Shown here one piece after another: positions 16,198-25,534 of a DNA stretch of 64,000 bases. Under the pieces are notes generated by a model that worked only from the letters and a program-made list of their open reading frames with translations, had not been told where the DNA came from and did not search any database. Origin of the DNA: an uncultured bacterium (lineage in GTDB: Bacteria > Verrucomicrobiota > Lentisphaeria > Victivallales > UBA1829). Position 1 is the first letter of the stretch; the number at the start of each line of letters is the position of its first letter. A program made the position numbers and the translations under genes. The stretch spans positions 124,001-188,000 of the forward strand of contig CACYZF010000008.1 of NCBI GenBank assembly GCA_902778895.1, read 5' to 3'.

Positions 16198-17670
16198 TTA
16201 CAGCGACAGGTCGTCGTCGTCCTCGTTCACGCGCGCCGTGCGCGGCGTCGTGCGGTTGCCGAGAAGAGAGCCGGAGCCGGTGCCCGAACCGCCGGAGGAG
16301 GAGGACGCCGAGCGCACCACGCGCCAAATAGGACCATAAGGATTGAACTCCGGGAAATCCCTGGTGGGTTGTTCCGGCAGGTCCAGCGTCGTACGGAAAA
16401 GCGTCATACGGCCGGAGGAATCGTTCATAAGCGGCTGATTGTTCGCGTCGAGCTGTTCGATATAGAGCGCCTGCGCGTAATGTCCGCCGGGTATTTCCGA
16501 AATCAGGACCTCGATCGGGTAGACCTCGCCTTCCTTGACGGAGATCGGCAATCCTTTCGCAAGGTCGAACGCCGCGCCGCCGCTCCGGGCGGAATAGACA
16601 TCCAGGTTCTGTTTGGAGTAGAGCGAGCTTTTCCTGCGGATATCGTTGGGACTGCTGCTCTTGAGCTGACGGATGTTGTTGTCGTCACGGGACATCGCCC
16701 AGAATTCGCCTGCAGAGAACGTCGCGCATCCGTAATCCAGCACGATTTCCTTGTTGAAGCGCACGAACATCACATCGTCCGCGGCGCCGACGAAACGGAA
16801 TTTGCCGGTGAACGGCGCGACCACGTTGCCGGAGTAGATGCACACCCATGCGGCCGGCTTCACGTCCTTCTCGCACTGGTAGGCTTTCGGGGCCTCGGAG
16901 GCGGCGATATTCTCCGAGAAGAAGCACGAGGACCACAGGCGGGTCGGCGAGCAGTAATATTTGTCAAGCGCCGGATAATGCACCCGGCCCTCGTTGTCGT
17001 ATTGTCTCTGCCAGGAGCCGTTCACGAACGACTGCATGATCCTCAGGGTCGGAGCCACGCGTTCATGGCGGTATTCCCCCGTCCCCGGGTCGTTTCTGAA
17101 TTCGTCGGTAGCCTGACGGTTCCGGGTCTGTTTCAAGTCGTAGAACACACCCTGCAGCATGCCTTTCAGGTTGCCGCGGCCGTCGCCGTCCCCGCCGTCG
17201 CCCATGCTGCCGCCTCCACCCGGACGCCCGAACGGGAGCACGCCCTGAAGCTTCAGAGCGGAATTGCTGTCGGGGATCGTCAGGGGCGTCGGGATATCGA
17301 TATCGGTCATGATCTCCACATCCGTCACGCCGACCTCGTCCATCTGCTGCTGTTCGCTCGAGTCGTAGCGGTCGAGCGACGGGCTGGAGGTATCCATCAC
17401 GGTCATGTCGGACGGCATGGGTTCATCCTCAGGAGGAGGCAGGACAGGTTCCATCTCCGTGATCTGAACCGGATCGATATCATCCTTGATCGCGGTCGGC
17501 GCGATGATCACAAGCGTGCCGAGCAGCACGAGCAGAAAAATATGGAACGCGAGCGAGAAAACAGGCCCGGTGATGTGCTGGCGGACAATATCCTTCCAAC
17601 TCGCGGGCGCAGCCTGTACGGCATCCGTCTCAAGTTCGTCATTCTGAATCTGCGGTTGTTCGATTTGCAT
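16198..17670 (-). CDS. TonB-like N-terminal membrane protein with Gly-rich linker and PA14-like region (paralogue A)
   Basis: 490 residues from the ATG at 17670, with GAGG 8 nt upstream; the longer frame to 17748 begins before the SD. Residues about 35-60 form one membrane helix (HITGPVFSLAFHIFLLVLL). A short Pro/Glu segment (VLPPPEDEPMP) follows, then a Gly/Asp linker with RPGGGG. The C-terminal half has SGNVVAPFTGKFRFVG...DDVMFVRFNKEIVLDYG, which resembles a PA14 beta-sandwich. It ends in an acidic EDDDDLSL tail. The topology (cytoplasmic N-terminus, single helix, Pro linker, periplasmic domain) recalls TonB/TolA. No exbB/exbD gene is nearby. Function unknown. It is a tandem paralogue of the gene at 17859. 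Confidence 0.75.
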   Translation of the reverse strand: MQIEQPQIQNDELETDAVQAAPASWKDIVRQHITGPVFSLAFHIFLLVLLGTLVIIAPTAIKDDIDPVQITEMEPVLPPPEDEPMPSDMTVMDTSSPSLDRYDSSEQQQMDEVGVTDVEIMTDIDIPTPLTIPDSNSALKLQGVLPFGRPGGGGSMGDGGDGDGRGNLKGMLQGVFYDLKQTRNRQATDEFRNDPGTGEYRHERVAPTLRIMQSFVNGSWQRQYDNEGRVHYPALDKYYCSPTRLWSSCFFSENIAASEAPKAYQCEKDVKPAAWVCIYSGNVVAPFTGKFRFVGAADDVMFVRFNKEIVLDYGCATFSAGEFWAMSRDDNNIRQLKSSSPNDIRRKSSLYSKQNLDVYSARSGGAAFDLAKGLPISVKEGEVYPIEVLISEIPGGHYAQALYIEQLDANNQPLMNDSSGRMTLFRTTLDLPEQPTRDFPEFNPYGPIWRVVRSASSSSGGSGTGSGSLLGNRTTPRTARVNEDDDDLSL

Positions 17671-17736
17671 TGCATTTACCTCAAAACAGCTTCCGGGAAC
17701 CCCGTTCGCCGGAACACATAAAAAAAACTCCTTAAA

Positions 17737-17763
17737 TTTATAGCACATTCATAAAGTTTTCAA
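17737..17763 (-). promoter_or_regulatory. Candidate promoter of paralogue A
   Basis: Minus strand: -35 TTGAAA (17763-17758), 15-bp spacer, -10 TATAAA (17742-17737). The spacer is short, so it may be weak. Confidence 0.4.
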
Positions 17764-17794
17764 GCCATTTTTCGTTTTTTTCATCCGATTTTTG

Positions 17795-17832
17795 ACAAAA
17801 AAAAAGATCACACGCCGTTTGAACAGGCGTTG
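17795..17832 (-). terminator. Terminator between the two paralogues
   Basis: Minus-strand hairpin ACGCC/GGCGT with a nine-base loop (about 17813-17831), followed after six bases by a run of nine T. Short stem, long T run. Confidence 0.55.
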
Positions 17833-17858
17833 AGCGGATGAAAAAAAGAAATGACGAA

Positions 17859-19313
17859 TCAGAGCGACAGATCGTCGTCGTCCTCGGAAACGCGTGCCGT
17901 GCGCGGTGTCGTACGGTTGCCGAGGAGACTGCCGGAACCGGAACCCGATCCTCTGCCGGAGGATGCAGCCGTCGAACGCACCACGCGCCAGATCGGGCCA
18001 TAGGGATTGAACGGAGGATGTTCGCGTCTGGGCTGTTCCGGCAGGTCAAGCGTGGTGCGGAAAAGCGTGAAGCGGTCCGGATTCGGGTCAAGCGGCTGAT
18101 TGTTCGCGTCGAGCTGTTCCACAAACAACACCATATTGAACTCGCCGCCGGGGATCTCCGAGATCAGGATCTCTATCGGATACACCTGGCCTTCCTGGAC
18201 CTCCAGCACGGGACCTTTCGCCAGTCCGTGCCCGTTGTCGAAACTCGGACGGTACACGTCGAGTTTGTGTTTGGAATACAGCACGCTGTCCTCGATCAGG
18301 CGGCGACTGCGTTCGTTGTCCGGGGAACCGCCGAGGATACGGTGGTAGTCGCCCAGGTCGTCCACGCGGACGCCGAGCGTGTAGGAGTACCAGCCGTAAT
18401 CAAATACGATCTGCTTGTTGAAACGGATCAGCAGCACGTCGTCGCAGAAACCGACGAACCGGAATTTACCGGTGAACGGCGCGACCACATTGCCGGAGTA
18501 GATGCACACCCAGCCGCCTGCCGTCCTCACCTGATTTGCGCACTGGAACGCCGCCGGGGCGTCCGTGGCGGGGATCTGCTCCGTGTAGAAACAGGAGTTC
18601 CAGAGGCGGGTCGGCGAACAGTAATACTGATCCAGATCGGGATAATGCACCCGGCCCTGATTGTCGTATTCGCGTCGCCATGAGCCGTTCACGAACTTCC
18701 CGATGATCGGCAGGATACGGTCGCGCGTGCGGTCGTGGTCGGCATTCGGATCGCCCATGACGTCTGTCGCTCGACGGTCCTTGGTCTGTTTGATGTCGTA
18801 GAACACGCCTTGCAGCATGCCTTTCAGGTTGCCGCGTCCGTCGCCCTCCCCGCCGTCGCCCATCTCGCCGCCTCCGCCGGGACGCCCGAAGGGGAGCACG
18901 CCCTGAAGCTTCAGCGCGGAATTGCTGTCCGGGATCGTCAGGGGCGTCGGGATATCGATATCGGTCATGATCTCTACGTCCGTCACGCCGACCTCCTCCA
19001 TCTGTTGCTGTTCGGTGGAGTCGTAGCGGTCGAGCGAGGGACTGGACGTATCCATCACGGTCATATCAGAGGGCATGGGCTCCTCCTCAGGCGGAGGCAG
19101 GACGGGTTCCATCTCCGTGATCTGAACAGGATCGATGTCATCCTTGACCGCGGTCGGCGCGATGATCACGAGCGTACCGAGCAGCACGAGCAAAAAGATA
19201 TGGAACGCGAGCGAGAAGACAGGCCCGGTGATATGCTGGCGGACCACGTCCATCCAGTTCGCCGGGGGCATCGGCGCGTCCAGTTGTTCCTGCGGGATTT
19301 CCTGTTCAGTCAT
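17859..19313 (-). CDS. TonB-like N-terminal membrane protein with PA14-like region (paralogue B)
   Basis: 484 residues. Residues 29-53 form a membrane helix nearly identical to that of paralogue A. VLPPPEEEPMP at 71-81, the SSPSLDRYDS segment, the IPTPLTIPDSNSALKLQG block and the Gly-rich linker are also nearly identical. The middle and C-terminal PA14-like part (about 270-345, with SGNVVAPFTGKFRFVGF and RFNKQIVFDYG) is diverged. The tail RTTPRTARVSEDDDDLSL is shared. I infer duplication followed by divergence of the periplasmic domain, with the anchor kept the same. Promoter at 19359-19386 and terminator at 17795-17832 make it a separate transcript. Function unknown. Confidence 0.78.
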   Translation of the reverse strand: MTEQEIPQEQLDAPMPPANWMDVVRQHITGPVFSLAFHIFLLVLLGTLVIIAPTAVKDDIDPVQITEMEPVLPPPEEEPMPSDMTVMDTSSPSLDRYDSTEQQQMEEVGVTDVEIMTDIDIPTPLTIPDSNSALKLQGVLPFGRPGGGGEMGDGGEGDGRGNLKGMLQGVFYDIKQTKDRRATDVMGDPNADHDRTRDRILPIIGKFVNGSWRREYDNQGRVHYPDLDQYYCSPTRLWNSCFYTEQIPATDAPAAFQCANQVRTAGGWVCIYSGNVVAPFTGKFRFVGFCDDVLLIRFNKQIVFDYGWYSYTLGVRVDDLGDYHRILGGSPDNERSRRLIEDSVLYSKHKLDVYRPSFDNGHGLAKGPVLEVQEGQVYPIEILISEIPGGEFNMVLFVEQLDANNQPLDPNPDRFTLFRTTLDLPEQPRREHPPFNPYGPIWRVVRSTAASSGRGSGSGSGSLLGNRTTPRTARVSEDDDDLSL

Positions 19314-23871: not shown

Positions 23872-25534
23872 ATGAAACTCCCGATCCGTTATCTCTCCGC
23901 CGCGGGCGTCGCGCTCGCCGCTGCCGCCACGCTCTCCGCGGCCGATTTCCATGACTGGGCCCCGACCCCGCCGATGGGCTGGAACAGCTTCGACTGCTTC
24001 GGCCTCAGCCTCACCGAAGTGCAGGCGAAGGAACAGGCCGAAGCCATGATCAAACAGCTGAAGCCGTTCGGCTGGAACGTCTTCGTGATCGACCACCAGT
24101 GGTACAACGACAACCAGAAGGGATTCCAGAGCGATATCCGCCACGAGTTCGCGATGGACGAATACGGCCGCTTCATCCCGGCCCCGGAGCGTTTCCCGTC
24201 CTCGAAGGACGGCAAGGGACTGAAGCCGCTCGCCGACTACATGCACGAACGCGGGTTGAAGATCGGCGTGCACCTGATGCGCGGCATCCCGCGCCAGGCC
24301 GTCCGCGAGAACACGAAGGTGAAGGGTACGAACTATCGCGCGCAGGACATCGTGAACATGCGCAGCACCTGTCCGTGGAACCAGGACATGTACGGCGTGG
24401 ACATGAGCAAGCCCGGCGCACAGGAATACTATGACTCCGTGTTCGAGCAGTTCGCCGAGTGGGGCCTCGACTTCATCAAGATCGACGACCTCTCCCGTCC
24501 GTACGCCACAGCCGAGATCGAAGGCATCCGCAAGGCCATCGACAAGTGCGGCCGCCCGATCATCCTCAGCCTTTCCCCCGGCGATACCCCGATCCAGAAC
24601 GGCAAGCACCTCCTGGCCGGACGCCGACATGCTTCCGTTCGGCATCATCGAGTTCACTCGTCCGACCAACTTCACGCACGACGAACAGCGCCTGTGCTTC
24701 ACGCTGTGGTCGATCGCGCGATCCCCGCTCATCCTCGGCGCGGACATGACCAAGCTTGACGACTGGACGCTGAAGCTCCTCACGAACAAGGAAGTCATCG
24801 AGATCAACCAGAACAGCGAGAACAACCGCCAGCTCATCCAGGACGGCGACCTGATTGTCTGGACCGCCGACGTCCCCGGCAGCAAGGACAAGTACCTCGC
24901 GTTCTTCAACACCGGCACGTCCGAGTACAACAAGTACGACCGCCGCAAAGCCATCGTGCAGAGCCATGGCGTCGGCCTGCAGGGCCTCCCTGAGGAGGAA
25001 ATCTCTGCAAACATCCGCGGCTCGAAGATACTCGCGCTCGCCGTCGTCGACAACGGCTATGGTTCCAGCTACAGCCATTCCGCCTGGATCCAGCCCGAAA
25101 TCTCCGGTCCCGCCGGCACAAAGAAGCTCGTCGATATGAAATGGTCCTCCGCGCACGCCGGTTGGGGCGCGGTCCGCAACGGCCTCACGAGCGACGGACA
25201 GGCGATCGACGGCATCGGCACGCACGCGCTCTCCCTCATCGTCTACAAGCTCCCGGAAGGCTACGACACCTTCAAGACCAAGGTCAAGCTCGTCGACAAC
25301 AGCGATTCCCGAAACCGCCTCAAATTCCTCGTCCTCGACGAAAAGGCGTTCGAACAGCCCGCCCCCGAGACCAGTGACATCAAGGTCAACCTCGCTGACC
25401 TCGGCTTCTCCGGCAAGGTCGTCGTCCGCGACCTCTGGGAAGGCAAGAATATCGGCACCGCCGAAGGCACGTTCACCTGCGAAAAGCTCCCGTGCCACAC
25501 CACGAGGCTCTACCGTCTCTCCCCCGCGAAGTGA
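23872..25534 (+). pseudogene. GH27 alpha-galactosidase, broken by an internal out-of-frame deletion
   Basis: The N-terminal part (23872 to about 24610) has a signal peptide (residues 1-23), then TPPMGWNSFDCFG and the catalytic nucleophile region DFIKIDD typical of GH27 (D-galactosidase/clan D). The reading frame then changes: WPDADMLPFG and the rest of the enzyme continue in the +2 frame up to 25534. At the junction (24598-24625) the sequence passes straight from NGKHL to WPDADML. The intervening 30-40 residues seen in GH27 enzymes, including the acid/base aspartate in the RISDD-type motif, are missing. Thus both frame and active site are lost. An assembly collapse cannot be excluded. Confidence 0.8.

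Follow-up and report, generated by a model that had tools for sequence, protein, structure and literature searches.

Tandem genes of a Verrucomicrobiota genome encode candidate TonB/TolA-type force transducers with a predicted PA14 lectin-type head

Introduction

What is the role of two adjacent bacterial genes whose products share a membrane anchor, a periplasmic arm and a C-terminal tail, and differ in the globular part between them? This question is raised by a locus in a 64-kb stretch of DNA from an uncultured rumen member of the Verrucomicrobiota (hereafter the window, meaning the whole stretch analysed). Gene A (17859..19313, minus strand) is an ORF of 484 aa that encodes an anchored PA14 protein (putative transducer A) and has orthologues in most genomes of the same genus. 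Its paralogue, gene B (16198..17748, minus strand), is a 516-aa ORF, whose true start is probably Met27 at 17670; this would give a protein of 490 aa and would match the start of the orthologues. Proton motors of the ExbB/TolQ kind serve TonB, Tol-Pal, gliding and type IX secretion, and we asked whether A and B could work with a motor of this kind.

Results

A and B were 72% identical overall. Identity was 95% for the anchor plus linker (residues 20-165 of A), 59% for the PA14 part and 79% over the last 39 residues, while the stretch before the helix (the first ~20-50 residues) was unlike between the two. The near-identical ends and diverged middle that a preliminary description had reported thus hold for the anchor, linker and tail, but not for the pre-helix N-terminus. 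From the N to the C terminus, both proteins consist of a short cytoplasmic stretch, an S-LAF-H membrane helix, an acidic/proline arm, a Gly-rich segment, a globular domain and the sequence EDDDDLSL; the common helix, PPPE(D/E)EPMP segment, Gly-rich linker and EDDDDLSL end listed previously were all present in A and B.

All features lie on the minus strand. The inner-membrane anchor of A (residues 20-54; 19152..19256), delimited by the anchor profile A2 and an AlphaFold2 model in which it forms two helices, contains the SxxxH motor-docking motif (S34, H38; 19200..19214). It is followed by the acidic/proline linker and Gly-rich segment (residues 55-165; 18819..19151; profile A2), mostly predicted to be disordered (pLDDT < 50 for residues 53-159), the predicted PA14/GLEYA-fold head (residues 166-445; 17979..18818) and the EDDDDLSL tail (17862..17885). 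In B, comparison with A and a structure model placed the anchor at residues 51-85 (17494..17598) and the linker with its Gly-rich segment at residues 86-196 (17161..17493), while the predicted PA14/GLEYA-fold head (residues 197-480; 16309..17160) was located by the model and Foldseek. The SxxxH motif of B (S65, H69; 17542..17556) was assigned from the A/B comparison and the anchor alignment, and its tail (16201..16224) from the A/B comparison and the tail class described below.

None of the curated NCBIfam and Pfam models matched A or B above its cut-off. In most genomes of the genus the tandem occupies the same locus, and this recurrence excludes chance for the A/B pair. Elsewhere in the window, an alpha-galactosidase-like gene (23872-25534, plus strand) is split over the overlapping ORFs 23872-24759 and 24431-25534; its division over two frames suggests a frameshift near 24.66 kb, either real or an assembly error.

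We then turned to the globular heads. In the AlphaFold2 model of A, built from 20 related sequences, the core was predicted with confidence (blocks of pLDDT 80-95), and the arm and tail came out as disordered. In a Foldseek search against the PDB, this model matched best to lectin domains of Epa proteins and to sugar-binding PA14 domains from bacteria (E 1e-6 to 1e-5), including Epa1A (1.6e-6) and the PA14 domain of an RTX adhesin (6m8m; 5.2e-6), with a TM-score of about 0.6 to the PA14 targets. The model of B gave the same outcome (sugar-binding PA14/GLEYA lectins, E ~1e-6). Judged by these models, the heads of both proteins have the PA14 beta-sandwich fold, in agreement with the PA14-like domain first suggested for them. 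By sequence, the Pfam PA14 match reached 11.9 bits against a curated cut-off of 24; GLEYA was hit in five of 12 members (best E 0.0018) and PA14 in three of 12, all below the Pfam cut-offs. A sequence search of the PDB with the PA14 profile gave no match, and the SQHop_cyclase alpha-alpha toroid matched relatives only, with no match in A or B.

In PA14 lectins, two consecutive Asp residues hold the sugar-binding Ca2+ (DcisD motif; PMC8092209). An Asp-Asp pair was invariant, as was the PA14 core, in alignments A5 and A6, namely Asp291-Asp292 in A (18438..18443; A5) and Asp324-Asp325 in B (16774..16779; A6). The pair, placed by sequence alignment alone, is a candidate DcisD Ca2+ site, and the predicted fold suggests that the heads may bind a sugar or glycan. 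Other PA14-like proteins were also observed. In several genomes of the genus they adjoin the tandem transducers (L034:1694-3346, L035:2849-4531 and L032:3374-6759, all on the minus strand); in these proteins a signal-like N-terminus replaces the anchor, and most end in a proline/acidic segment, e.g. NPFGYLQQLPEDEE. On contig C6 of the window's own genome, a 1378-aa protein (L031:4271-8407, minus strand) combines FHA, Ser/Thr kinase and membrane-helix parts with a PA14-like domain at the C terminus that is close to the one in A and B, a composition suggestive of a possible glycan-sensing kinase.

To follow the anchor beyond the genus, profile A2 (anchor plus arm) was searched in 388 Verrucomicrobiota genomes and matched 129 of them. 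Across the Verrucomicrobiota, the S and H of the TonB/TolA-type SxxxH motif were kept in 68 of 69 distinct anchors. The helix is of the SHLS type, with L at H+7 in 49 of 65 anchors; the final Ser of the SHLS motif was not kept, H+11 being mostly V/I/L. A 1069-aa match to the anchor profile (L056) gave no alignment over the helix and was taken as false. No Pfam match to the TonB_C domain was found in A or B. The anchor had been called TonB-like in the preliminary description, and this is borne out both by the SxxxH conservation and by the location of relatives in an ExbB-ExbD-ExbD operon.

No ExbB, ExbD or motor-operon TPR gene was found in the whole 64-kb window. The earlier remark that no ExbB/ExbD is nearby is therefore accurate, but the motor is not absent: the window's genome encodes five motor genes (TPR, a ~260-aa protein termed P260, ExbB, ExbD and ExbD) on contig C5, while the transducers are on C8, and elsewhere in the genus the two are likewise unlinked. 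Outside the window's order, we inspected 34 loci chosen to spread over families. In 24 of them, TPR, P260, ExbB, ExbD, ExbD and the anchored protein formed one run, the transducer being the sixth gene of the operon; the run of L068 is interrupted by frameshifts. Pfam confirmed ExbB and ExbD in one representative full operon set. In the six loci inspected from the window's order, the transducer was unlinked from the motor, but in G056 another anchored gene was located ~1 kb past the second ExbD. Also in this order, TPR-P260-ExbB-ExbD-ExbD is preceded by murC, either immediately or almost so, in L043, L047, L057, L059, L060 and L062. Neighbouring genes gave little functional clue beyond murC upstream in six loci and a mutL-like gene downstream in four. 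The window's genome carries four ExbB-type genes, so the choice of motor for A and B rests on co-occurrence. Three further ExbB/ExbD-type sets of this genome (L044, L045 and L046, on contigs C3 and C4), one of them preceded by another TPR protein (C4), show that several proton motors coexist in it.

We next compared the distribution of motor and anchor across 61 genomes. Both the motor set and the anchor were present in 26 genomes and neither in 32, while one genome had the anchor only and two the motor only (Fisher p=8e-14, kinship ignored); the three exceptions are assemblies that are 72-86% complete. Two scores were judgement calls: G059 was counted as motor-positive, its P260-ExbB-ExbD-ExbD run beginning at a contig edge (L120), and G050 was counted as anchor-negative after its motor was found missing, its weak anchor match being a 131-aa frame with E 1.3e-4. 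Before this rescoring, the table (both, anchor only, motor only, neither) read 25/3/2/31 (p=1.8e-11, kinship ignored). The number of ExbD genes also differed: anchor-positive genomes had 3-10 (median 7), whereas the median of the anchor-negative genomes was 2 (p=1e-10, kinship ignored); at the genus level, this contrast gave p=1.5e-4.

The murC locus gave a further view of this pairing. In G014, G021 and G050, which have no transducer, P260 was directly beside murC without TPR, ExbB and ExbD, while the full motor set was present at this locus in G013, G041 and others. The simplest reading is that G014, G021 and G050 lost motor and transducer together. Taken together, these genomic data lend good support to a motor partnership of the anchored proteins. 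At L117, L118 and L122, P260 persists alone beside murC with the motor genes missing, so it may also have a separate function. P260 was rejected as a marker of the system, since it occurs in 283 of the 388 genomes versus 129 for the anchor and survives without the motor.

Having examined the anchor, we looked at what it carries in other genomes. In most anchored relatives, the PA14 head is replaced by a squalene-hopene cyclase-type alpha-alpha toroid (Pfam SQHop_cyclase_C), the profile of which matched 2sqc in the PDB at 1.6e-15. In the window's own genus, G006 carries the toroid but no PA14 form. G053, which belongs to another family, combines a PA14 form (L013) with two vWA forms (L124, L125); the anchors of the three are closely related and group in the tree with a support of 0.995. 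These observations show that three unrelated heads (sugar-binding-type PA14, ring-shaped toroid or adhesion-type vWA) occur on one kind of arm and tail, and the working end of such a machine appears to be exchangeable. A kept anchor with a variable head had been proposed for A and B; with a toroid or vWA head on the same anchor and tail in relatives, the case is stronger than it was then. The acidic hydrophobic tail was retained with all three heads. By our definition, a tail of this class has two or more acidic residues among its final 11 plus a hydrophobic-x-hydrophobic pattern near the end. The class covered 68 of 70 full-length anchored proteins compared with 42 of 705 (6%) other ORFs of the same loci, a contrast that is descriptive, as the rule was written after the tails had been inspected.

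The high identity of the two anchors raises the matter of their history. Across seven genomes, heads compared between species were 77% (A-type) and 81% (B-type) identical, versus 56% for A and B of one genome. In the head tree (FastTree), A-type and B-type separated across species with a split support of 0.994-1.000, whereas the anchor tree (FastTree) joined the A and B of the window's genome (0.974) and those of L112 (0.854). At the fourfold sites of the anchor, A and B of one genome were no less alike (0.76) than orthologues (0.70). Recent duplication alone was rejected as the cause of the near-identity, because heads group by type across species and anchors pair within a genome. The trees instead indicate that A and B are old paralogues, the anchors of which were probably homogenised by gene conversion. 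The anchor is kept as described before, but part of its near-identity between A and B probably reflects gene conversion and not constraint alone.

Discussion

We consider it likely that A and B are two alternative proton-driven force transducers of the TonB/TolA type with a PA14 lectin-type head. According to this model, the SxxxH helix would dock on the side of the proton-driven ExbB-ExbD-ExbD motor encoded on contig C5, and the disordered acidic/proline arm would reach through the periplasm. The ligand of the PA14 head would lie in the envelope; a glycan is most likely, probably bound via Ca2+ at the Asp-Asp pair. The acidic hydrophobic C-terminal tail would provide a further docking site, perhaps for the periplasmic TPR protein or P260. 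With protons flowing, the machine would pull on the ligand held by the head or shift its position. More tentatively, and with rather more doubt than confidence, we suggest for the whole family that one ExbB-ExbD-ExbD motor and a conserved arm and tail may have had their heads (PA14, toroid, vWA) swapped in evolution, which would let the machine exert force directly on different envelope ligands.

Other readings of the pair have to be weighed against force transmission. A and B could be membrane-anchored glycan sensors in the periplasm, in which the head detects sugars or fragments of the cell wall and the anchor only positions it. Such a role is suggested by the FHA and Ser/Thr kinase protein of this genome (L031:4271-8407), which ends in the same PA14-like domain, as well as by Foldseek matches that include proteins with anti-sigma-factor domains (6qe7, 6qdi). 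However, the cytoplasmic part of A and B is hardly large enough for signalling (about 20-50 residues), the SxxxH motif is kept, the transducer is the sixth gene of the motor operon in relatives, and motor and anchor are missing together, which makes a pure sensor improbable. It is more improbable still that the tail alone grips the partner, with the toroid, PA14 or vWA head being a mere spacer or regulator and no ligand-specific part. Retention of the tail with three unrelated heads would fit this idea, but the invariance of the Asp-Asp pair and PA14 core argues against it, as do the head identities (0.77 for A-type and 0.81 for B-type between species, 0.56 for A versus B), which suggest distinct kept functions.

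The TonB-like helix, the proline-rich arm and the ExbB/ExbD partners in relatives would also suit an ordinary TonB-type protein that energises TonB-dependent receptors of the outer membrane. This explanation is largely refuted and has very little probability left. Pfam found no TonB_C domain in A or B, and the TonB_C-like matches of the genome are two other genes. Furthermore, searches found no TonB-dependent receptor barrel or plug in the window's genome, while the same searches detected both in control genomes; import via such receptors is therefore unlikely, and an ordinary TonB for nutrient receptors was rejected on this ground. We thus retain force transducers with a lectin-type head as the best explanation.

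The motor operon found here is widespread in the Verrucomicrobiota, uncharacterised, and remains associated with its transducer in genomes that encode the two at separate sites. With an exchangeable transducer end, what the motor pulls on becomes a testable question. If borne out, the PA14 head would be, to our knowledge, the first lectin fold on such an arm. In the open-access literature, a scope that leaves most subscription journals outside, we found no description of a PA14 or toroid head on an arm of this type.

A close relative has been described, contrary to the initial impression that the architecture belongs to no known family: vWA proteins with an SHLS helix are proposed as force transducers, and in the PVC group their genes often lie downstream of a TPR gene, a tolQ-like gene and two tolR-like genes (Williams-Jones et al. 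2025, PMC12204202). This arrangement was seen in the 24 of 34 loci outside the window's order; in the window's genome, where the transducer genes are unlinked, it is supported only by co-occurrence. Neither a PA14 nor a prenyltransferase/toroid head is mentioned in the text of PMC12204202. The present proteins resemble the vWA transducers in their SHLS-type helix, proline-rich or disordered linker and globular head that is not of the TonB_C fold, and G053 even has vWA heads on the same anchor and tail; they differ in that the window's heads are PA14 and those of most relatives are alpha-toroids. The consulted passages of that paper make no mention of P260 as a sixth component, of the conserved acidic hydrophobic tail, of tandem copies unlinked from the motor or of homogenised anchors, all of them features of the present family.

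With TonB and TolA, the family shares the N-terminal SxxxH helix, the extended proline-rich arm and the ExbB/ExbD-type motor, but A and B have no TonB_C/TolA C-terminal domain and their genome has no TonB-dependent receptors. The predicted fold and the invariant Asp-Asp pair are like those of the PA14/GLEYA lectins MpPA14, Epa1 and Flo5. Unlike these lectins, A and B fall below Pfam cut-offs in sequence and would be tethered on the periplasmic side of the membrane rather than exposed at the cell surface, and their sugar binding is a prediction only. Finally, the squalene-hopene cyclase-like toroid, absent from the window's proteins, is the head of most anchored relatives, where it sits on an ExbB/ExbD-type anchor.
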